From the NCBI GenBank assembly GCA_937930555.1, contig CALHCH010000089.1:1-38162 (forward strand): a stretch of 38,162 nt of DNA, given 5' to 3'. The notes under the pieces were generated by a model. The model ran no database searches, was not told where the DNA came from, and saw nothing but the letters and a program-made list of their open reading frames with translations. Both the position numbers and the translations under genes were made by a program. This DNA is from Candidatus Absconditabacterales bacterium (GTDB lineage: Bacteria > Patescibacteriota > Gracilibacteria > Absconditabacterales > Absconditicoccaceae). This document shows, piece after piece, positions 14,082-37,748 of the stretch. Numbering within the stretch: the first letter of the stretch is position 1; the number at the start of each line of letters is the position of its first letter.

Positions 14082-14711
14082 ATGCGAAAAGCTCTCCTCA
14101 TCATATGTATACTCCTCCTAGCTGCTCGACATATCCGAGGACGATATGTCACTCACAATATCGAGACGCCACCTGGTGAGAGCACTATGATGTGAGATAT
14201 TGAGATCCGTACTATGCCATCTGTACTCGTGGCATCGGTGTTGGTGCCTGGTGATGAGATCAGCTCACCCAACAATGCGTTTAGTCAGTTGGCAGGGTTT
14301 ATATTTGGAGACAATGTGTCTCGTGACAAGATCGAGATGACCGCACCTGTCACCAGCAAAAAAATCAAAAATAATGAAAAAATCGAAATGACTGCTCCCG
14401 TCACGTCCAAAGTCAGTGGGGAGATGACGGAGGTATCGTTTGTGATGCCGAGCAAATGGACGAAAGACACACTACCTATACCCAACAACAATAATATCAC
14501 CATCTCACAAACGCAGCCCAAAAAGCTTGCAGTACGAACATTTGGTGGCTATGCTACCTCAGCCAATATAACCAAAGAAAAAGAAAAGTTTGTCCAAGCA
14601 TTGGTCGAAAACAATATCTCACGATCTGGTGAGATGACCCTCGCTCAGTACAATGATCCCCTCACTCCAGCCTGGATGAGAACCAATGAGTGGTGGGTGG
14701 AGATAGAGTAA
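14082..14711 (+). CDS. SOUL-family heme-binding-like protein, exported
   Basis: A 209-residue protein starting MRKALLIICILLLAA, a signal peptide or anchor. The body is the SOUL/HBP domain: VASVLVPGDEISSPNNAFSQ, FIFGDNVSRDKIEMTAPVTS, KIEMTAPVTSKVSGEMTEVS, FVMPSKWTKDTLPIP, LAVRTFGGYA. The KIEMTAPVTSK element occurs twice in tandem, as in several bacterial SOUL proteins I know. Only one glycine (MMGDIE) is TGA-coded. Members bind heme or tetrapyrrole in eukaryotes; the bacterial role is unclear. Convergent with the lipoprotein gene at a shared terminator (14729-14767). Confidence 0.85.
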
Positions 14712-15412
14712 TATTTCTGGATAAACAAAAAGCCAGTACCTGCAATTCAGGGACTGGCTTTATTTTTTGGTGGAAATTTGATTTCCAAATCTTTACTGAT
14801 ATACAGCAATTTCTTTTGGCAAATTTGAAATCCTGTATTGTAAGCGTTACAAAGCTGTTCATCTACAGATCGATAGTGTATATCGCCCACTTTATACAAA
14901 GGTATCTTTTGGTCATCAATACGTAATACCAAATTAGCCCAAAAAGATGATAATTTACCATCTTCAAGTCGATAGACGTAGTGCACATAGTCACAATCCT
15001 CATCTACAATTGGATTTCCAAAAAGGAACTTTTCTTCATACTGTTTGATCTGATAACGAAATGCAACGTAGATATCAAAGATATTTAAACTCCTATCTAC
15101 ATGATGGATTTCTGTCACTCTTTGACCAGCATCATCTTGCCCTATCAGGAGATAATGGCTTGAGCATACAGCATAGATCTTACAAGAGTCCAGCCTAACA
15201 TCATTAAACTTGCCTACTCTACCCATAGGCAGCTGCTCCCTATCATCCAGATCAATATAGTAATCCAGAGAATCGATCCGATGATATACGTGAGACTCTA
15301 CTCCCATACTCGGAAGTAGAGAGTCGAGATTTTGCTCTTTAGAGATACTTTTCCACACAGTGCAACTTGAAGAAAATCCAGTTACTACAATAAAGAGTAC
15401 AATAATTTTCAT
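14549..15412 (-). CDS. Lipoprotein of unknown function; code-25 end is doubtful
   Basis: A lipoprotein starting MKIIVLFIVVTGFSSSC, with a lipobox and Cys17. The mature part (DSLLPSMGVESHVYHRIDS, VGKFNDVRLDSCKIYAV, FWANLVLRIDDQKIPL) matches nothing I recognise. With TGA as glycine it runs to TAG at 14549 (287 residues) and overlaps the SOUL gene by 163 bases on the other strand. With TGA as stop it would end at 14747 after KNKASP (221 residues), inside the shared terminator hairpin at 14729-14767. About ten glycines are encoded and none of them by TGA, unlike most neighbours. The coordinates follow code 25; the shorter form fits the terminator better. Confidence 0.55.
14729..14767. terminator. 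Bidirectional intrinsic terminator
   Basis: AAAGCCAGTACCTG, a short loop and CAGGGACTGGCTTT form a long hairpin with A runs on the left and T runs on the right, so it works in both directions. It ends the SOUL gene (plus) and would end the lipoprotein mRNA (minus). Confidence 0.85.
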
Positions 15413-15589: not shown

Positions 15590-16657
15590 TTATAGTTCAC
15601 TATCTATTTTCCACAATACCTCCAACAGGAAGGCATAATTTCTCAATACAGGACTTCATTGCACAAAGCTAGATACAGCAAGTGTATAATTAATCTCATC
15701 GATTTTTTCGCTTACTTTTGAGATTACCATATCTTGATCGTCTGCACTTGCTGTATCCAATCGCTTACTAATGATTGATTCTATAAGCTGCTCGTGTGAT
15801 GACTTGAGATACACAAACTCAAACGCTACACATGTTGCTCTCTCTTGCTGAAAACAAGCTTTTTTGGTACAAGCTCAAAGCATACTATTGGTAACAGTGC
15901 AGTTGTTGCATCCATCATATCGACTAGTACAAAAATTGGGTGCATCTATGATATTGAGAGGGTTTGGATTGTCTACACAAAACCCATCATAGGCTCTACT
16001 CACCCCAGCTGCTTGCATATCACAGATATCACCATACGATATACCATCCACCCCACATACTGGACCGCTATATCCTCTATCGCATACATCAGGATCACCA
16101 AACTCACACTCACCAGCATATGCTATATCTACACCATCACACTCTGCGACACAGCGATTGCTATATGTCTGGCCATCTACTCCACACTGTGGATCATACT
16201 CCATCGTACAGATACACATATCTGACTCTGACTGCTCATCTACGATTTCCTGATATGGACAGCTGCTACATAGCCCACCACTGAGTGTCTCTCCGTCATT
16301 GGATAGTATAGTATATGATCATCCTACCTCCATATCTGCACAAGCTCCTCATCGAGTACAATTGATATTGCTTACCTCACGAGTGAGTATAAGCGTTTCT
16401 AAATCAGTTCACTTGAGTACCCTATCTACCGAGATAGTATATGTATACGTCCCAGGCGTTGCATTACCTCATTGCTGAGCACAAAACTCTTCGTCATAGT
16501 CACTTGATACATACTGCACATCTTCGATCGTACCTTCGACCACGATCATCGCATCACCTAGCTGATCCTCAAAACTAGGAAAACTCGCACAACTCAAACC
16601 ATATGCAGTACTACTCACAAATAGAAATCAAATAATTCACAAAAATAATTTCTTCAT
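15590..16657 (-). CDS. Secreted NTR-like plus Kazal-like protein
   Basis: A 355-residue exported protein with signal peptide MKKLFLGIIGFLFVSSTAYG. Residues 22-145 have the pattern of a TIMP/NTR-like domain: CASFPSFEDQLGDAMIVVEG, ISVDRVLKGTD, GGACADMEVGGSYTIL, GGLCSSC. Two Kazal-like modules follow at about 147-185 (CICTMEYDPQCGVDGQTYSN) and 190-225 (CDRGYSGPVCGVDGISYGD). The C-terminal half has two more cysteine pairs and a helical end. Kazal domains inhibit serine proteases, so the protein may protect the cell or block enzymes of a partner. Several glycines (QQGGN, VGGSY) are TGA-coded. It has its own terminator at 15512-15539. Confidence 0.8.
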
Positions 16658-17686: not shown

Positions 17687-18694
17687 CTACACACTCCTCA
17701 ACATCCCAATCACCTGCTGAAAATACTCCACATATCAAGTATCCAATCACATCTCAGCGAAGTCCTGCTCTACCCCATCCAGCAATACCCCAATCTGCCT
17801 CTGCACATGCTCCTGTATATGGTAGGTCTCAAACAAGGTCTGCAATCTCTGCATACTCTGCTCATCTAGCTTAGCACCTCTAGCTGATCGTAGTGTGTGG
17901 AAATCTGTCTCCGAAAAATGTTCGTGACAAGCTTGCATCACGACAGTCTGATTTCATTCTTGGATATCGGACATTTTTGTTTTTCATTCTTTGTTGGGTA
18001 TCCAGTCCAAGAGATCATCTCTCATCTGAAACGCGACTCCTATCTTTTTACCAAGTTTGCTTACAAGCTCCAAATCTTCACATCCAGCTAGCGATGCACC
18101 GATCATTATCGGTTTTTGGAATGTGTACTGTCCTGATTTGAGATGGTCTTTGGTGGCTATCTGCTCCGAAGTCTTGAGCTGGACAGTATGGCTAAAATCA
18201 ATATCTAGCATCTGTCCTATCACGACTTCATTGAGCATATCCATCACGATCTGATGGGCGTGAGTGCCGGTCATTACTGTACATGCCTCCTGCAATGCTC
18301 GAGTGTATACCAGATCTCCCACAAGCATCGCCTGAGAGAGTCATACATGTGTGTCATCATATGTGGCAGCGAGATGTTGGTGATAGGTCGGTATCTGATG
18401 TCTCATCGTGCCCTGATCGCAGATATCATCGTGGATCAATGCAAATATGTGTATCATCTCCGACACGATACCCACCTGCGTGATATACTCTAGATCCTCT
18501 CATCCATACAGGCTATATCGCAGATACACCATATATGGACGAAATCTCTTGCCGTGATCTACATATGGTCTGAGATAGGTCAGTAAATCAAAGGTCTCAT
18601 CATCAGGAAAATATCCTCTCACAGACTCAAGCTTGCTCTCTAGCCAACTCTCCAGTGCAGTATCAAAATGCGTTTTATATGCTTGTAGATTCAT
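17687..18694 (-). CDS. Polyprenyl diphosphate synthase
   Basis: A 335-residue trans-prenyltransferase that condenses isopentenyl diphosphate onto an allylic diphosphate. The first Asp-rich motif is FALIHDDICDQGT (about residue 88), preceded by GKRFRPYMV, and the second is GVAFQMRDDLLDW (about 226). The GGPP or longer-chain product cannot be decided from memory. It lies divergent from crtI over a 95-base spacer that holds a perfect palindrome, and crtB and a UbiA-type prenyltransferase follow nearby, so a role as the GGPP synthase for carotenoid synthesis is likely. The C-terminal region IQEGNQTVVMQ has a TGA-coded glycine at the usual position. Confidence 0.88.
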
Positions 18695-18744
18695 ATCACT
18701 AAGTAATATCCTTCGGTCAAATAGAGAAGAAAGTAAGTAAAATT

Positions 18745-18765
18745 ATTACTACCTCTTGTAGTAAT
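18745..18765. promoter_or_regulatory. Perfect inverted repeat in the divergent prenyl synthase/crtI promoter region
   Basis: ATTACTAC, five bases, GTAGTAAT: an 8-base perfect inverted repeat centred 40 bases before crtI and 60 before the prenyl synthase start. This placement suits a shared operator for a dimeric regulator. A hairpin in the mRNA is the alternative. Confidence 0.45.
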
Positions 18766-18789
18766 CCTCAACACAATTACAACTGTCAT

Positions 18790-20316
18790 ATGCAAAAATC
18801 TACAAAAAATATCGCTATCATCGGTTCGGGTTTTGGTGGACTGTCGGCTGCCTGCTATCTCGCACAGCAGTGACATCAAGTCACCGTATACGAAAAAAAC
18901 GAACAGCTCGGTGGTCGCGCAAGTGTAAAACGTGCCGAGGGATATACCCGAGATATGGGTCCTTCGCGATATCTGATGCCTGACTTATTTGAGGAGTTTT
19001 TTGCTGATTTTGGCAAAAATATCCACGACTATCTGGATCTGACTCAGCTGGATCCTAGCTACAAGATCTACTACAAAGACAATCCCACGCATCCTATGAT
19101 AGATGTCTCAGCCGATATAGAGACAAACCGTGAGACATTTGAGTCTCTGGAGCCTGGCTCAACAGACAAGCTCTATAAGTATCTAGAAAAATCCAAGTAC
19201 ACCTACGAGATCGGGATGAGTCAATTTGCTACCAGAAATTATGATAATATATGGGACTTTTTTAGACGAGATATGGCGATCAAAGGAGCACAGATGAAGA
19301 TATTTTCTTCTATCCAAACCTATGTCAAAAAATACTTTGCTTCTGATGAGATGCAAAAAATCATCCAGTATCCTATGGTGTTTCTCGGCTCTCCTACCGA
19401 CAAAACTCCCGCACTGTACAATCTGATGACCTATGTGGATTTTGGTATGTGAGTGTGGTATCCGCAGTGAGGGATGTGATCGCTGGTCCAGGCGCTGGTA
19501 GATCTGGGTACTGAGCTGTGAGTGACTTATCGCACTGATAGCGAGGTCAGTCAGATCATCACTACTCCAGCGGCAACCAAGTGGCGACAGCTGTGAAAGA
19601 AAAAATCAAAAGTAACCGCTCTCCAGCTGAGCTCCTGAGAGATCGTACAGATTGACGCTATTGTCTCCAATGCTGATATGCACTGGACAGAGACACAACT
19701 GCTAGATATACCAGATCAGACATACAATGAAGCATATCGAGACAAGCACGTCCTCGCTCCAAGTGGGTTTTGTATGTATGTATGACTGGACCGTAAAATT
19801 GAAGGCCTGGAACACCATACCCTGATATTTAGCGAAGATCGAGAAAAGGGGAACAAAGAAATATTCTCCACCAAGACCTACCCTACCGATCCCTCCTACT
19901 ATATCTGCTGCCCGAGCAAGACTGATCCTAATGTAGCTCCAGAGTGAGGAGAAAATCTATTTTTCTTGGTGCCGTTTCCGTCTCGTATACAGATGGATGA
20001 TAACGCCAAACAAGCATATAGAGACAAGATCATAGCAGATGCGCAGCAAGTCCTGTGACAACAACTAGAATGACACATCGTCCACGAAGAAATCTTCTGA
20101 CCTGATGAATTTAACAAAAGATATCACGCCTATGGCGGCAATGCACTCAGTGGATGAGCGCATCTGTTTCGCCAGACAGCGATATTTCGCCCACACAATG
20201 TCTCCAAAAAAGTAGATGGGCTCTACTATGCATGATGATATACCAATCCTGGTATATGAGTGCCGATATGTATTATCTCTGGGAAGTTGGCGAGTGAGAG
20301 GGTTGAATTATTATAA
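18790..20316 (+). CDS. crtI: Phytoene desaturase-like enzyme
   Basis: A 508-residue FAD-dependent carotenoid desaturase. The N-terminal dinucleotide fold is IAIIGSGFGGLSAACYLAQQ, then YEKNEQLGGRAS. The family-typical region FLGSPTDKTPALYNLMTY is followed by GMGVWYPQGGMGSL, in which the glycines are TGA-coded. The C-terminus ends with GLYYAGGYTNPGIGVPICII, the FAD-closing motif of CrtI. It converts phytoene to coloured, desaturated products. The ATG at 18790 is the only one placing the Rossmann motif near the start. Divergent from the polyprenyl synthase gene. Confidence 0.9.
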
Positions 20317-28751: not shown

Positions 28752-29420
28752 TTACAAATTTTCTACAACTTCTCTAAATGATTCCGAAGACATTCATAAT
28801 ATTTTACCACGCAGAGAAATCGTTAAGAAACCTACTCATCCCACTCAAGGAATAAAAACATATTCAACGGGCTCAGTGAATCATATAGGAGATAGCCATT
28901 CTACTGGAAGATTCTCTCTACCAAAAAGTGTTGTAAAAATACTTTCGTTAATAGTGTTGTGCGTTGCTATGTAGATAGTATTATCAGTGGCGTCTCTTTG
29001 TTCTCCCAATGTTCTACCTAGTTCTCTAGCCTGTTCATATCAATGATCTGTCAGCTGTCACTCCTTATCTTTCTCTCAATGTCTAAATGCAATGATCTTG
29101 AGAGAGTCTCAAGATCTAATCACTCTTTCAAAAATCTTACTCATATCAAATAAGAAATTTTTAGCTAGATCTTCTGGCTGACTCTCTCGCTTTCAATCAA
29201 GAAAATTTGATACAAGTTCTTCTTCGGTTAGTCCTTGATTCTTCCAATACATAAATTCTTCAGCTATCTCTTCGGGATAATATTCAGTATTGAAAAATCA
29301 TAGCTTAGATCTTACTTCAACATCTATGCTTTCTTTAGCATTAAGGTTAATTTCCTTAGCTACCTCTTTTCAGGTTTCGTTTGCTCTAGGAACGGATGAT
29401 GTGTATATCTTTTTTGCCAT
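28752..29420 (-). CDS. Histidine-phosphatase-family protein
   Basis: A 222-residue protein. Residues 1-105 are helical and unrecognised (KEVAKEINLNAKESIDVEVR). Then comes the histidine phosphatase core: LKIIAFRHGEKDKEGQLTDH, with the RHG-type catalytic His114, GYEQARELGRTLG, and the second conserved His in IYIATHNTINESIF. The ordinary family cleaves phosphate esters through a phosphohistidine. It starts 54 bases after the stop of the giant PEP-synthase-like gene on the same strand, so the two are probably co-transcribed. Several glycines, including RHG, are TGA-coded. A third conserved basic residue cannot be confirmed, so its activity is uncertain. Confidence 0.72.
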
Positions 29421-29474
29421 CAAGAAAATCTAATAAATACTTAATTGTATACTAATAATAATCATTATGCAAAT

Positions 29475-32400
29475 CTATTCGAATATGGAGATAGTTCCTG
29501 TATCTCAATCTACCTCTACATTCATTCAAGTTTTTAGAAGATCTGTGGCATTTCCTGTTGCTACTACGCAAGGTATTCATAGTTCTCTAGATACTATTGC
29601 AGCGTGGGACATCATTCATCATTGATTAGTAATTATTGCTGAAGCCTTATTGCAAGCTGCTATGATACTAGGTTCTGTACTTTCAGCAACAAGTATTTCT
29701 CAATGATTCATTTCTTCGACTAGCTTACTTACTTCATCATATTTGCTTATATCTACTTTGATAACCCTAACTATACCATTCACTTTTCATCAGCTTGCAC
29801 TTGTTCAGGAGATCTTATCTCAAGACTGTTGGTACAGATGATTGAAAGCTGGATAGACTTGTTCTCAAAACTCATAAATCAATTCTCAATTATCAGAATA
29901 GATTAAATGTCATTTCTTTCTTTCCAACAAGATCTTATCTTCAATAACTCCATCATCAAATAATCTCACTGCATCATCAATTTTATAGTATCTTAAATTA
30001 TCCTCTGAGATTCAGAATTGCTTGGAGAGCTTTGAAATTATTCAATTAAAATAACAATCAGGAGTGAAGCACATCTTATTCAAGAAAGCTCTACCATCTA
30101 ACTTGAGTTCCTCAAAAGTTTCAAAGTTTTTTTTGACTACTTCATCCTGTTGTTGATACACTAAATCTGTGTAGAAGTATTCAGTCAATCTATACAAGTA
30201 ACGAAACTTTTGCGACAAAGCAACATATTCTTTAAAATCAGATTTAGTAATTTTGTCACTCGATATGATATGTTGATACTGTTGAGATACTTCTTGCTTG
30301 GTGTTAATAATATCTTGTTGATATTCTTGGTACTTTTTACTATCTCAATATAGTTCCAATCATTCTTGATTAGTTTCTTTTTGTTTCTCGGTACTCATAA
30401 AAGATACTCGTTGATTATCATTACAAACTACCATACACTCAAGGTCGGCATATAATCTAGAAAACTCATCTGAAATAATAAAAGGCACTGCAGAATCAAA
30501 TTGGAATAGTCTAGTATAATATGAGTTGTTGAGTTTCTTTATAACCTTAGTAGTCAGATTCTCTGATCTTTTAATTATATTAACTACGCCATTATGAGCA
30601 TCAACTTCTACTTCATCTCAATCTTTGAAAAACTGAGTTGCAAACTTAGTTCATATTATACAAGGGACACCTAATTCACGAGAAACTATTGCAGCGTGGC
30701 AAGTGATTCAGCCTTCATTAGTTATTATGGCTCAAGCTTTTTTCATTAGTGGTACAAACTCAGGACGAGTCATCGAGGTCACTAAAATATCTCAATCATC
30801 AAAATCATTGAATTGGCTTGCGTCTAAAACAATCTTGATGTTTCATATCACGTGTCAGGCAGTGGCTGTAGTTCATTCTATTCTTCAAACGTTTCACTTA
30901 AACTTTTTGCTGACAAAAGCATTCTCAATCTCATCCATATCAATTTGAATATTATTGGACTCTAAGACATTAACTGGCTGAGATAGACTTTCAAAACCAT
31001 TTATTCTTGCTTCAATATTTTCCTTATTCTTTTTAATATGATTGACTCAAGACTGAAGATCAAAAGGATGTAGTAGCATACAGAAGCTCTTATCTATTCA
31101 GACTCTCCTGCATACATCTAAAGAAATTTTATAGAATAATGCCTGACACATTGCTATCTCATCTTTCCTGTAATCTCTCAACCTGATAACATATCTACAG
31201 TATCTTGCTATCTTATTATGCAGTTCAGAAGCGTCAGCTTGGACTTGTGTATTATCAACCACTTTACTTTCAATATCTTTATATTTCACTAAATCGTTTT
31301 TAATGTAATCCAAGCTTTTCACTTCCTTGTAGTCTGTATATAGATACAAAGCAAGCATTGCAGTTTCATTTCATATTACTCATCATTGAGCTAACAAACC
31401 TTTTTTATACTCGTGCCTTTTTTCAAATGAATCAAAGGATTCATCAGAAATTTTTTTCACAATAATGGTAATATCTTCTTTTGAAATTTGATGACTATCA
31501 AGAACATCAGCCATTATTTCTTCGGTAAAATTTTCTATAAATAAAGTTCTTGTTATGATCTCACTATACAATGATTGTAGACTTTTTGCCAAGTCAGTAA
31601 CATCATTGTCTGAATAGTTTCCCAAATCTTTTACTATTGTTGTCTTATATAATTCAATAATGTCAGAAGCCTTTTCTGTATAATACTTTTGAAAGTCATC
31701 TATATTAAAATCATCATCTAAGTAATTCTTAAAATGATTTCTTGCGATATCACCATAAGCAGTCTCGCTAAAGACTATTAGAGATTCATCCTTGCTCCAA
31801 GCTTGATACATTGGAAATCATCATTCGTCCATTATCCAGGTAGTTAAAAACAATGGAGCATAAGATCATCTAATAACAAAAGACTTATCATCTCATAACA
31901 GTGTTTCAATTTTTTTAGATAATTCTGCCTCTTGAGTATTTTTTTCTATAATTCTCACTACGCCATTATCGGCATCTACTTCAACCTCATCTCAATCCTT
32001 TAGAAGTTGTGTTGCAAATTTGGTTCATATAACTGATGGTAATCACATTTCTCTTGATACTATTGCAGCGTGACTAAGCATTCATCCAATGTCTGTAATG
32101 ATAGCAGTAGACTTTTGCATTAGTGGAACAAAGTCAGGTGTTGTCATAGTAGTCACTAATATATCTCAATCTTGAAACTTGTGAAAGTCGTCAGTTGCAT
32201 AGATAACTCTCACTTTCCCCTTAGCGTATCATTGATTTCATATCTGTCATAATAATTCATTATCACTTTTTGGTTTCGGGACCATCTTATTTTGTAGATA
32301 GGTTAGATCAATTTTTGATTCAGATGTTCTAATATTTTCTTCTTCATCAAAATATAATAACCAATTATGATCTCTACGCGTTTCAATCAATTTAAGATAG

Positions 32401-34190
32401 TTATCTTTAGTTAGCTTGTTTTCAAGAATTTTTCTGATCTCAGGTGGAGTAAGGTGAAGCATATCTCTATATGAAATAGCTAAGTTCTTTGCTAGATTCT
32501 TTAATCGATCGTCTAAATGAAAAGATAATATCGAGGAATATTCTACTCAAGCTTGTCTTACAAATGTTAGATCTTTACTAGCGTCAAGAAACTCTCTAAA
32601 TTCTTCAGAAACTTTGTTATAATAACTTGCTGATTGTCTGTGCTCAGTATGGTTTGCAATAAGATCAAATAACTTTTCATTTGTCATTTTCTCTCAAATA
32701 TAATTGATCATCTCTATCCATCAGTATTCATCAGTGTGTTTTTCAAAAGCTGTATTTATTTCTTTTTCAACAAGAATTTCTTCAAGGGTAGCTTTATCAA
32801 GTCATTTTTCTGCAATTAACTTCTTAATCATTCATAGATCTTTTTGTTGGTCTAGTAGATGTGATGAGATCTTCGGTATCAATCAAGGTATTTCTTCCGC
32901 AGGAATTTTTTCACTCATTGCTTTATCAGCTAAATGTGATTCAAATGATTCTGATAATAAGTATCAAAAACACCAATAAGTCATATAGGTTTCTGCTATC
33001 TCTACAAATCTATCAAAATCATTTACAGTAATATCTTGATTGCTTCAGATCAACTTGATTTCATCAAGCAATCAGTCAAAATTTTTTCTAGCACTCAAAG
33101 CCAGTTTATGATATTTATCAAATGAATTTGATCAAACATCTTCAGAAACAATCTCATCAATTTCTAGTAGAATATCTTTGTCAGCAAAAAAGTGTCATCA
33201 ATTTAAGATAAGTATTCAAGACTTTGAGATATTGAAACCAAGTTTATTAAGTGTCTCTTTATCAAATCGTTTTAACCAAAAGTATGCAGCAAAAATATCA
33301 TTTCTTCGTAGTCAGAAAAAATGATAGTTTGAGTACTTTATCTGATCTAGTTGTGAATCAGTAAATTGATGTGACTGAATTGTGGTAATTGGTCTTGCTT
33401 GCAAGATATACAACTGACCATCTTCCAAAGCCCATTCTATATCCATAGGTTTCTTGTAGTGTTCTTCGATTCTTTCTGAGATTTTTGCTAGTTCTATAAT
33501 ATGCTCATCTGACAGCTTTTGCACTCACTGTATTGTTGATTCAATTTCTTCCTCTTTGATTCATCATTTATCTATATCAACCACAAGCTTCTTACTCTGA
33601 GTGCTAAAGTTCTTTTCAAGAATCTCTTTCTTGGGTTTACTCCGTAGGTAATTATCTGGTGTAATCATTCAAGATACAACAGCTTCTCATAGTCCATATC
33701 ATCACTCTATAATGACCTGATCAGTATTGTTTGTGACAGGGTTAGCAGTAAATGATACTCCAGCTACTTCACTATTTATCATTCTCTGTACCACAACAGC
33801 TACCTTTATCTCATCTTTATCTATTCATTTAGATTCACAATATGCCTTGATGCGATCTGAGTTGATAGACTTATGACATTCCATTATTTGTTCTAACAGA
33901 TTTTCTCTATCTACAAACAGGTATGTTTCAAACTGTCCTGCAAAACTATCATCTACTCCGTCTTCTTTGGTCGCGCTACTTCTTACTGCAACATATTTGG
34001 TAGCTAGTTGATCAAATGCTTCATATATTTTATCTTTCCATTGATTGTGATCGATACCAAATGCTTCGGTAGTAAGGACGAATCAATCAGAAAATGGAAA
34101 TCACGCCCTCATAAGTTCGCCAAGCGATGCTCACTTACCACCACAAGTAGGCACATCAGCAGATGAGATTTCTTTGAATCGTTTGATCAT
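29475..34190 (-). CDS. Giant PEP-synthase/rifampicin-phosphotransferase-like protein with three swivel domains
   Basis: A single 1571-residue frame with no TAA or TAG. Residues 1 to about 270 are a pyruvate-phosphate-dikinase-type ATP-grasp domain: [71 protein letters not shown]. Helical regions of 300-400 residues alternate with three phosphohistidine swivel domains: [15 protein letters not shown] (His707), [15 protein letters not shown] (His1165) and [15 protein letters not shown] (His1529), each followed by a VEVDxxxG strand. There is no C-terminal PEP-binding TIM barrel, so the plan is like rifampicin phosphotransferase with the acceptor and swivel part present three times. Over 60 glycines are TGA-coded. 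The substrate is unknown; phosphorylation of a small molecule or protein is inferred. It precedes the histidine-phosphatase gene. Confidence 0.85.
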
Positions 34191-34244
34191 TTATCTTTTA
34201 TTAGGAAAGTAAAAATATGATTATGTATTCTATATCTATTGTAG

Positions 34245-34283
34245 ATTATAATTCTAGAGCTCTTCTATACTGGGAATTATAAT
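34245..34283. promoter_or_regulatory. 10-base inverted repeat in front of the PEP-synthase-like gene
   Basis: ATTATAATTC, 19 bases, GAATTATAAT, 55 bases upstream of the giant gene. It could be an operator or a hairpin; no T run follows. Confidence 0.4.
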
Positions 34284-34321
34284 ATATCAATTTGCTGTAA
34301 CTAGATTCATAGAATAATACT

Positions 34322-34822
34322 CAAAGGGCAAAAGAAATAAGTCAATTCAAAAAAAATATAAAGACCATTGAGCAGATTTGAGAAATTGGTTCAAAAGACA
34401 TTACATCATCTCTACACTACTTTGATTGATGGTCTGCTATTGTAGGTTCTATGTGATGAACGTGAACTGATACCATTTTATCTACTAAGACAACTGCACC
34501 TCAAGAGATAGTAGAAGCTATAAGTATCGCATCTACTGAACTTTATTCTCAATATGAAGACAATGAAATCAAAGCTGATGAGATGTATAAATGAAAAATC
34601 TTGCAAGTTGATGGAAATGTGAAATCAATTTGAAAAGATATATTGGATGATATGTTTGTTGCGTTGGAATGAGACGGACTTATTTTCACTATCCAATGTA
34701 TGCTCAAATAATCTGAAAAAGAGAAGGCAATCAATCTAAACGAACGAGACTATATCACAGTAGAGTGAAAAAATAGTTGAAAACTTGGGAATGTACTACT
34801 AAAGAACTGCATCATCAAATAA
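34322..34822 (+). pseudogene. Decayed OB-fold (tRNA_anti-like) gene
   Basis: The translated pieces form one recognisable protein of a family with an N-terminal membrane segment and a tRNA_anti-like OB fold. The piece with the anchor (DLRNWFKRHYIISTLLGL) ends near 34430. The next piece is one frame shifted (WSAIVGSMGGTGTD, then ADEMYKGKILQVDGNVKSIG) and stops at TAA 34709. The same frame then continues with the fold's end (EKEKAINLNERDYITVEGKN, LGNVLLKNCIIK) to TAA at 34820-34822. There is no start codon before the anchor. So it is broken by a frameshift, an internal stop and a missing start, and its function is lost. Confidence 0.65.
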
Positions 34823-34891
34823 TACCTAGCTTTCATTGAAACGTGAATAAAACAATCTATACTGAATCAGTTTTGTATAGTAATTTTTTCT

Positions 34892-35617
34892 ATGGTTGAT
34901 AACAGTAATGAGATACGCATACCATCTATAGAAAAACTTGCTATAGATAATCAAAAATCACTCCAAGCAATATCATTGCCGAGTAAAAAACTTGTTGAAA
35001 CTATAAAGATTATGAATGAACAAATGCTTGCACCTATACAACAAATCACAAAGATTATGGAAGAGAATAACAAACAATTATCTTGGGCGTATCAGATTCC
35101 TTTGAAAGATTTTTTCAAAGAGCAAAAAAGAATAACAGAGCATATCAATACTATCGTAAGTAATAATTGATTTACTCAAATGATTGAAAACCTAAAATCA
35201 TCATTGACTGAAATCAACTTTCCTAGAATCGTATTTATGGAAGAAGTAACTTACAAGCAAGAAAAGCATACTGATAAGAAACACGAAACAGAAACTACAG
35301 TCATAGAAAAAACAATAAAGAAAACAGTAGAAATATGATGAAAAGTAAAATGATGATTTGATGTGAACGCTCTAGTACAGGAACAATTAGAAAAAGGTCA
35401 TTGAATGGATATTATCATACCAACCAATAAAGGAGAATTGGAAACTATATATCTTGTAGATGATCTTACAAAAGATGAACTGTCATACTTTCATAGATAC
35501 GGAAAAGAAAAAGCATACTTCTGAGAAGTTTCAGTAAAGTTTCATCATTGAAAAGCAGTATGATGAAAAAAGACGATAAGAATTGATGTTGATAAAAAAC
35601 AGTATTTGAATACATAG
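34892..35617 (+). CDS. Coiled-coil protein of unknown function
   Basis: A 241-residue protein that I do not recognise. The N-terminal 170 residues are helical and likely coiled coil (PSKKLVETIKIMNEQMLAPI, ITKIMEENNKQLSWAYQIPL). The C-terminal part (GMDIIIPTNKGELETIYLVD, SYFHRYGKEKAYFGEVSVKF) is probably a small globular domain. Eleven or so TGA codons fall in the GG pairs of EIGGKVKGGFDV and similar places. No signal peptide. It stands on the same strand as the recombinase within the mobile element, 102 bases before a small frame. Confidence 0.6.
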
Positions 35618-35719
35618 TAGCTACCTGTAAACAGAGAATACAGGACTATTTGTTCGGAAATATAGCTACTTTACGTTCGCTATGCGACAGGTAAAGAACT
35701 ATGGTAACCATTATGATAT

Positions 35720-35863
35720 ATGGTTTCTCTTCCAGAAGCAAGAGAGCTACTATGAGATGAATTTGCTGAAATGTCTGATGAAACAGTTCAACATCTAATC
35801 ACTCTCATCAAATCTATATGCGAATATGTTATCACTACTGATAGCAACTCAATAGAAAAGTAG
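35720..35863 (+). CDS. Small acidic protein of unknown function
   Basis: A 47-residue frame, MVSLPEARELLGDEFAEMSD, then ETVQHLITLIKSICEYVITT. The first glycine is TGA-coded and the protein is mostly helix. A strong terminator follows directly at 35876, which supports its being transcribed. Upstream, TACCTGT (35622) and ACAGGTA (35687) could pair across 58 bases. Confidence 0.5.
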
Positions 35864-35875
35864 CTTTTTCTAATC

Positions 35876-35908
35876 AAATCACAGTCTTTCGAGATTGTGA
35901 TTTTTTTA
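35876..35908 (+). terminator. Intrinsic terminator after the small acidic protein
   Basis: AATCACA, loop, TGTGATT followed by a T run. Lies 13 bases after the stop codon at 35863. Confidence 0.8.
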
Positions 35909-35932
35909 TTTGCATTTTTACTCATAAATACT

Positions 35933-36004
35933 AAGATAAAACTATATTTATTTACATAAGCCCCTATATGAAAATAATTATAGAATTAAACAAAGTTTTA
36001 TCTT
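35933..36004. promoter_or_regulatory. 11-base inverted repeat flanking the recombinase promoter region
   Basis: AAGATAAAACT (35933-35943) and AGTTTTATCTT (35994-36004), 50 bases apart, ending 13 bases before the recombinase ATG. The arms are exact. Possible roles are an operator for autoregulation or part of the recombination site. Confidence 0.4.
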
Positions 36005-36017
36005 TTATATTTCATCT

Positions 36018-37748
36018 ATGAAAAGACAAAATGAGAAACAACGCAAAGAAAGAGTTCTAAGTTTTGATACAGAGAAATGAAGTATTAAAAAATTAGAAGA
36101 AGTAGAAAAGTTGCGTGAGAAAAAAGCAGTAATTTACTGTAGAGTTTCAAGCAAATCGCAAGACTTAGAGTGAAATGGTCTTTCCTCTCAACAAAGAAAA
36201 TGTAGTGAGCGATGTGCAAAGAATGATGTAAAAGTAATAAAAGTATTTAGCGAAAGATGAGTCTCCTGAGCAAAAACAGAACGTAAAGCATTGAGAGAAT
36301 TATTAACCTACCTACAAGAGCAAAATAAAAAATACATCAAAATTACTCATTTTGTAGTCTCTGAAGCAAGTCGCATAAGTAGACCAAATGATATTGCAGA
36401 AGCATTTACTATAGAAGCAGAGATAAAATCCCATTGAGTAGAAATAATCAGATTAGATGCTCCATCTATTGATGATAGCACAGACGAATGACACCTATTC
36501 AAAACCATACAATATGCTGTTGCGTGATATGAGCGTAAAAAAATCTCAAGAAGAGCTGGCGACTGAAGAAGAAATAGATTATTGGAGTGATATCGACCAT
36601 TCCCTCACGTGCCAACTGGTTATATCAGACAGCGTGTATCAAAAAAAGAGTATCACGATCTCATAGATGAAGAGAGATGACCAATTCTAAAAAAATGATT
36701 AGAGATGTATGCTTCTGATGTAATTTTAAGTGATGCAGATTTGTGGAGATATCGAAGCGAACAAGGACTACTCACAAAGTCTAAATGAGCAAACAAACTA
36801 CAAAGAACCTTTGTAGAAAAAGTGATGCAACTACATAGGATACTCTTCTATGCCTGATATATCATTTACCCTGAGCGGTGAGTAGAAGAACCTATTGAAT
36901 GACAACACGAATGAATTATCTCACTATCTACTGCACATAAGATCATAAAAAAACAACAAAGAAAACATAAATGAACCAATAAAATACAATGAGTCTCAAA
37001 AAAAATGTCAGACGAACATCCTATGAGATGAGTAATAACTTGCTTTCATTGCAGAAGAAAGTTCACAAGTTGGAATACAAGCAAGATGGTATGACCAAAA
37101 TGAGATAAGACAAAAAAACTCTATCCATTTTATGGATGCAATAATAAAGACTGTGACGGTAGAATGAACGTAAAGAAAGAAGTATTAGAAGAGAGCTTTA
37201 CTGATTTTCTTGCAAAAATGAGTTTGCCTGAGTGAATACTTAAACTCATCAATACCATATTTGAACAAGCACGAGAAGAAAGCAAGCAAGATAAAGTTAA
37301 AAATAGAAAAAATAGAATAAAGACAATTAAATCTTTAGAGAAAAGGCAAAGCAATATAGAAGAAACACTACTACAAACACAGAACTTAAAACTCTGAAAA
37401 AAATTAGAAGAAGAGCGAGCAACCTTAAGTGAAAAAATAGAAATAATGAATGATGATTTGGAGAATAATACACACTCAGACGCCAAGAAGAAAGCCCTTT
37501 TGCAAAAAGTTCAGCATTTATTTGAAGATCCTCTCGCTATACGAGAACTAGGCAATCAAACTATGAGATGACTATTGATTACGGTTCGATTTGGCGATAC
37601 TCTTTTCTATACAAAAAAAGAGTGACTTAAAACCGTTTGAAACGGCACACTCTTCAGTATCTATCGTGATTTATCTAAATTATTTCCTAGTGGTAGGTGA
37701 CCCGGGATTCGAACCCGGGACCTTGGGCTTAAGAGGCCCCTGCTCTAA
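36018..37748 (+). CDS. Large serine recombinase, reading into tRNA-Lys
   Basis: A 576-residue site-specific recombinase. The resolvase domain has KKAVIYCRVSSKSQDLEGNG with the nucleophile Ser44, then VFSERGVSGAKTERKALREL and VVSEASRISRPNDIA. A recombinase domain follows (GANKLQRTFVEKVMQLHRIL, GQHEGIISLSTAHKIIKKQQ), then a zinc-ribbon with CFHC and CNNKDCDG, and a long Lys/Glu-rich coiled coil. Many glycines are TGA-coded. The frame has no stop before the neighbouring tRNA gene, so its last 18 residues (PGIRTRDLGLKRPLL) are antisense tRNA sequence and end at TAA inside the tRNA. The natural end was probably lost when the element inserted. Confidence 0.85.
37613..37654 (-). terminator. Intrinsic terminator of the tRNA-Lys transcript
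   Basis: On the minus strand AAGAGTG, an inner hairpin CCGTTTCAAACGG, then CACTCTT and a T run. It lies 37 bases after the tRNA 3' end but inside the recombinase coding frame. Confidence 0.7.

Follow-up and report, generated by a model that had tools for sequence, protein, structure and literature searches.

A TGA-free lipoprotein gene that ends at TGA in a lineage reading TGA as glycine: a possible standard-code import in an exchangeable slot

TGA is a glycine codon in the bacterium described here, and one of its lipoprotein-like genes, itself free of TGA glycine codons, meets TGA as its first stop-type codon, within a terminator-like hairpin. We infer that the gene is of foreign origin, that TGA is its evolved end and that its message is nonstop; more exactly, we give an even chance to the reading that it is an import of standard-code type, sits in a slot of exchangeable content, ends at TGA and leaves a nonstop message in its present host. 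A foreign, standard-code reading fits best because the lineage carries a class of TGA-free secreted-protein genes, five of which are in the same predicament of TGA before a terminator. The gene lies in what we call the window, the whole 38,162-nt stretch analysed here, which is contig 89 of a 1.2-Mb assembly that is 85.5% complete (genome G000; Table 1).

The preliminary description of this DNA had reported a frame without TGA glycines that runs into TGA 14747 within a bidirectional terminator, and reading the frame and folding the region confirmed it: from the ATG at 15412 on the reverse strand, the first stop-type codon is the TGA at 14749–14747, and none of the 10 glycine codons ahead of it is TGA. 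The antisense extension was likewise borne out, because with TGA as glycine the frame continues through the TGA plus 65 codons to the TAG at 14549. The start of the protein is lipobox-like, as judged by eye. The hairpin has T-rich tails in both directions and folds at −19.4 and −19.5 kcal/mol on the two strands (z −4.8 and −3.1); it is not among the entries of a simple terminator scan.

Table 1 Features of the lipoprotein gene and its slot (positions in the window)
Feature	Coordinates	Strand	Remarks
SOUL heme-binding protein gene, left slot border	14082–14711	+	PF04832, E 1.6e-39
Extension if TGA = Gly	14549–14746	−	65 codons + TAG (14551–14549), antisense to SOUL end
Bidirectional terminator-like hairpin	14729–14761		Common to SOUL and lipoprotein gene; core on both strands
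TGA codon of lipoprotein frame	14747–14749	−	Stop in standard code, glycine in the organism; in hairpin loop and inner stem
Lipoprotein-like ORFan gene	14747–15412	−	221 aa; 10 Gly codons, TGA 0/10; standard-code end is TGA
A6 tract, then TAA in −1 frame	14760–14768	−	Hairpin foot; read directly from sequence
Kazal-type protease-inhibitor-like gene, right slot border	15590–16657	−	Native; TGA in 8/31 Gly

The proposal that this genome reads TGA as glycine was upheld. RF1 was found and the sole prfB match scores better as RF1, no RF2 scored above cut-off in the 85.5% of the genome represented, and 37% of glycine codons are TGA (205 ORFs, 228,587 bases). Between sister species, 27 of the 35 glycines shared in thioredoxin reductase differ in codon and 30 involve TGA, and in superoxide dismutase all 13 shared glycines involve TGA, 10 of them with different codons. 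TGA is therefore no ordinary stop here, given that RF1 alone was found, that TGA supplies 37% of glycine codons and that TGA and GGN replace each other at conserved glycines. Among the longer ORFs of the window (1–38162), the TGA share of glycine ranges from about 0.08 to 0.77 and is highest in AT-rich genes (for example, at 28752–37748); one native ORF of 1,571 aa (29475–34190) has TGA at 69 of its 94 glycines.

Taken alone, the lipoprotein gene is a modest curiosity, because none of its traits is very rare. Zero TGA in 10 glycines is a roughly 1% event by arithmetic from 37%, and is only moderately rare in practice, with 4 of the 50 ORFs of 7–12 glycines in this genome lacking TGA; out-of-frame TAA or TAG codons lie at most 16 nt before 448 of 1,358 internal native TGA codons (33%); and 27% of 474 antisense entries are open for at least 50 codons. 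What is unusual is the combination of a TGA-free frame, TGA and a strong terminator. A scan of 31 sequences found 21 TGA-free frames of at least 120 aa that end at TGA, 8 of them with a terminator nearby by our own rule. Among the scanned sequences from the window's own genome (the window, L023–L032 and L118), the lipoprotein gene is the only strong terminator case, and four others of the 8 are sorting-domain genes.

No homologue of the lipoprotein was found in 98 relatives or in the genome_contigs, viral_contigs and phages collections, as reached by patterns or tblastn, and neither Pfam nor NCBIfam gave a match. Matches to a plasmid (E 0.2) and to a PDB entry (E 1.3) were discarded. A resemblance to a 925-aa TGA-free protein of the same genome (54 residues aligned at 26% in pairwise BLAST; E 8e-5 pairwise, 0.11 genome-wide) was rejected as homology. 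AlphaFold on the single sequence gave an uninformative model (mean pLDDT 30). Codon usage outside glycine, on which 27% of 136 native genes score equally high, fails to separate even the four TGA-free training genes from native ones, and this overlap led us to drop it as a marker of foreign origin. The type IX sorting tail PF18962 is absent; because the protein has no Pfam match, we file the gene as one of the same kind of slot gene and not as a sorting-tail gene.

The slot itself is defined by synteny. The order C39 peptidase–SOUL–slot–Kazal-type–SnoaL is conserved between G000 and its sister species G002 (C39 peptidase, 44% over 314 aa; SnoaL-type protein, 75% over 122 aa; Kazal-type orthologue in the same position, 44% over 410 aa), SOUL orthologues are 66% identical in G002 and 67% in G003, and at this locus the slot is the only part in which G000 and G002 differ. 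It holds the lipoprotein gene alone in G000 (TGA in 0/10 glycines), genes for a 200-aa lipoprotein-like and a 163-aa signal-peptide-like protein in G002 (0/7), and genes for 219-aa and 171-aa proteins in G003 (0/10), where it is covered to the contig end and the right border would lie beyond. The five slot proteins show no mutual resemblance, and all look signal-peptide-like by eye. With native TGA shares of glycine near the slot of 37% (G000), 82% (G002) and 38% (G003), the joint chance of zero TGA in all three slots is of the order of 1e-9 if codons are assumed independent. The final slot genes of G002 and G003 end at TAA ahead of their terminators. In G004 a SOUL gene is present without such neighbours, at a locus that we do not equate with that of the window, and a search for SOUL in G001 gave no match. 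Elsewhere in the window (17687–20316), a polyprenyl synthetase gene adjoins a flavin amine-oxidase/desaturase-like gene, a pair that perhaps belongs to a carotenoid-type pathway.

A far larger group of TGA-free genes exists in the lineage. On contig 7 of the same genome, three long TGA-free genes (925, 566 and 1,251 codons with 50, 49 and 107 glycines; 923, 551 and 1,225 codons from the first Met) stand between TGA-using genes, and two of them match PF18962; in the protein scan neither reached the curated cut-off, and in a genome search one exceeded it. That search, across 118 relatives, gave 91 matches in 39 genomes, 78 of them in genes that are TGA-free over the covered part. In 71 of the matches, 69 genes are TGA-free and 6 TGA codons occur among 3,194 glycines, TGA being counted over the covered part or from the start given by a rule that may miss TGA upstream of the real start; 9 of the other 20 are TGA-free. 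Several of the frames show TGA further upstream, and many genes are covered in part only. The other ORFs on 17 sorting-tail regions use TGA for 1,858 of 5,311 glycines (35%), in a set that by definition leaves out TGA-free ORFs with at least 14 glycines; the share is 23–82% in 16 of the regions and 8% in one (G054).

This class resembles secreted proteins of Bacteroidota, in which a glutamine after the signal peptide is typical: Q follows a signal-peptide-like start in 49 of 62 long TGA-free genes versus 25 of 76 native ones. Its proteins combine Ig, PKD, HYR, SprB or dockerin-like domains with the C-terminal sorting tail and show partial similarity to proteins of Spirosoma, Runella and Persicobacter. 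MopE metal-binding repeats occur with a sorting tail in two TGA-free genes, L118 1880–4714 (G000, 0/88 glycines) and L120 7870–9549 (G003, 0/31). Misbinning as the source of the class was ruled out by the TGA-rich flanks, by cross-species synteny and by the single-contig genome G029, in which TGA-free tail genes stand between TGA-using ones, so that a binning error is no explanation. The remaining 13 of the 91 matches carry TGA, several at native level (18/51 and 17/41 in G038), and adaptation to TGA thus does occur; some of the weak TGA-carrying matches may not be true tails. Native-level TGA in sorting-tail genes was seen in L130, L142, L137 (G038), L134 (G012) and L138 (G014), which suggests that a single lineage carries the class in two coding states.

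Among the 77 TGA-free sorting-tail genes whose stop is in view, 60 end at TAA, 12 at TAG and 5 at TGA (two in G010 and one each in G006, G017 and G054). In these five, TGA follows 1–11 codons after the sorting-domain match, and a hairpin with a T run comes next; under TGA as glycine, the frames run on through the terminator. The sorting domain normally stands at the protein end and so marks the natural end of the five genes. TGA precedes the hairpin in all five, whereas in the lipoprotein gene it lies inside, which makes it an anatomically poorer stop there. The G054 case is weaker because its region uses little TGA (8%). That TGA stops are scarcer here than in Bacteroidota (5/77 versus 11/60 in two plasmid stretches; Fisher p 0.058) is unestablished. 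In G017, a 161-aa signal-peptide-like TGA-free frame (L114 8137–8622) ends at TGA with the next stop 17 codons on, and is a possible further TGA-ended case.

Some TGA-free genes persist across species. In genus g14, three of them (about 256, 490 and 699 codons) form a run flanked by a TGA-using gene and rpsL; this run is present in four species, with protein identities of 40–72% and differences at 0.53–0.77 of four-fold sites, compared with 0.51–0.63 in the adjoining native gene. Two species pairs with no member in common show codon changes at 166 shared glycines, none of them to or from TGA; in the native neighbour, TGA is involved in 34/69 and 37/66 of the shared glycines. In G045, the copies diverge more than the native genes do. 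Likewise, a TGA-free pair of 704 and 706 codons in genus g16 has 37 changed glycine codons, none involving TGA, and in the window's own genus a pair of 923 and 1,140 codons (TGA in 0/50 and 0/76 glycines) adjoins the genes for superoxide dismutase, in which all 14 of 14 glycines are TGA in G002, and thioredoxin reductase. High expression is an unlikely cause of TGA avoidance, as rpsL and rpsG near the 704/706 pair are TGA-rich (5/11 and 7/11; 4/8 and 6/7). TGA-free secreted genes also occur at fixed sites in L105–L109 and L110–L111 (G017, G026, G043, G045, G047, G019 and G036), near rpsL–rpsG or beside a conserved 379/412-aa gene, and are TGA-free despite deep synonymous divergence; these genes probably matter more than the lipoprotein gene itself. 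Either something keeps such genes readable in the standard code or they are repeatedly renewed at the same sites.

These results bear on the earlier suggestion that the lipoprotein gene was taken from a standard-code host and is not yet adapted. Origin in such a host gains indirect support from the unrelated TGA-free slot genes of two sister species and from the many Bacteroidota-type TGA-free genes of the lineage, five of which end at TGA before a terminator; against it, the protein has no detectable relative. The second part is weakened, since syntenic TGA-free orthologues have diverged at synonymous sites as native genes do without gaining TGA. According to the model that we favour, the lipoprotein gene would belong to a standard-code-type set of secreted-protein genes in the TGA-as-glycine lineage (Ca. 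Absconditabacterales and relatives), and species would exchange the contents of the slot between the SOUL and Kazal-type genes. The standard-code end of the gene would be TGA 14747; with TGA read as glycine, ribosomes would enter the terminator and meet no stop before the message ends. Such a nonstop message presupposes that transcription terminates at the hairpin and that TGA 14747 is read as glycine. Little clean lipoprotein would be expected in the present cell, and rescue by tmRNA would be its likely fate; of 31 genomes searched, 23 gave a tmRNA match above cut-off, one congener among them, and the window's own genome gave none.

Three other accounts of the gene's end were weighed. The main rival, that the true end is the TAA at 14760–14762, we consider possible but somewhat improbable: if the assembly lacks one A of the A6 tract, or if ribosome or polymerase slips by −1 on A_AAA_AAT, the gene would end there, with its stop at the hairpin foot just before the stem, the usual place for ordinary genes of the genus, and in line with the TAA ends of the last slot genes in G002 and G003. 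The slippery sequence and the hairpin are both present, and A tracts are normal beside bidirectional terminators. However, the 33% of internal TGA codons with a near out-of-frame TAA or TAG make this a weak coincidence, and the five sorting-tail genes show that TGA-before-terminator ends exist in the lineage. Translation of an ordinary native gene through TGA to the TAG at 14549, in a tail-to-tail overlap with SOUL, would take the organism's code literally, and the extension is indeed open; we nevertheless consider it unlikely, as such a frame would read across the terminator and about 160 nt into SOUL, whereas 1 of 26 native convergent pairs overlaps, by 38 nt, in a gene set that permitted overlaps of up to 60 nt, and antisense frames equally open are common by chance. 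It is rather doubtful that the gene is a decaying import or a functionless chance ORF with a meaningless TGA, an account that can overlap with that of an import: the gene is an ORFan and slot content differs in each species, but the 221-codon frame is intact with a start that appears lipobox-like, and the same kind of slot gene occurs in both sister species examined.

Why chromosomal genes should stay TGA-free is a broader matter. It is quite improbable, in our estimate, that they are kept standard-readable through at least partial expression in a standard-code Bacteroidota partner; if so, the lipoprotein gene would terminate properly only in that partner. Features in favour are the signal peptides of Bacteroidota type, the type IX sorting tails, the tolerated TGA stops, the partial similarity to Spirosoma, Runella and Persicobacter proteins and the coverage correlation given below. 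Sorting tails without a translocon would also fit: the type IX translocon domain SprA_N was not found (0 of 59), with the controls silent too. Promoters of Bacteroidota carry the motif TTTG-N17–23-TAnnTTTG; it precedes 0 of 63 TGA-free genes and 1 of 169 native ones, which provides no promoter support for expression in Bacteroidota. Shine–Dalgarno motifs are near chance before TGA-free and native genes alike. In cyanobacterial mats, Absconditabacteria coverage is reported to be moderately correlated with that of Bacteroidetes (Jaffe et al. 2021, PMC8406219).

The closest published parallel is the code-11-compatible phages of Gracilibacteria and Absconditabacteria, explained in that study by a broad host range (Liu et al. 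2023, PMC10746230). As described there, those phages, like the present genes, have no in-frame TGA and mostly other stops and are usable in both codes; they are genomes found by spacer matches, and prophages in such hosts are TGA-dense. By contrast, the genes described here are chromosomal, have TGA-rich flanks, are partly syntenic, resemble secreted genes of Bacteroidota and in five cases end at TGA. They share domains and the PF18962 tail with type IX cargo of Bacteroidota, but the carrier is a lineage with TGA as glycine and the lipoprotein gene lacks the tail. Recently acquired, unameliorated genes show the same donor-like coding in a recoded host; unlike such genes in general, some of those described here are syntenic across species without having gained TGA. 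Outside subscription papers and preprints, the literature search found no account of chromosomal genes of this kind and none of type IX tails in the lineage.

A changed genetic code is considered a barrier between a genome and foreign genes. A TGA-rich lineage nonetheless carries long TGA-free genes, some of them kept across species and a few ending at the reassigned codon. Such genes would allow a direct test of the code-barrier effect, of the handling of nonstop messages and perhaps of gene traffic between epibiont and partner.
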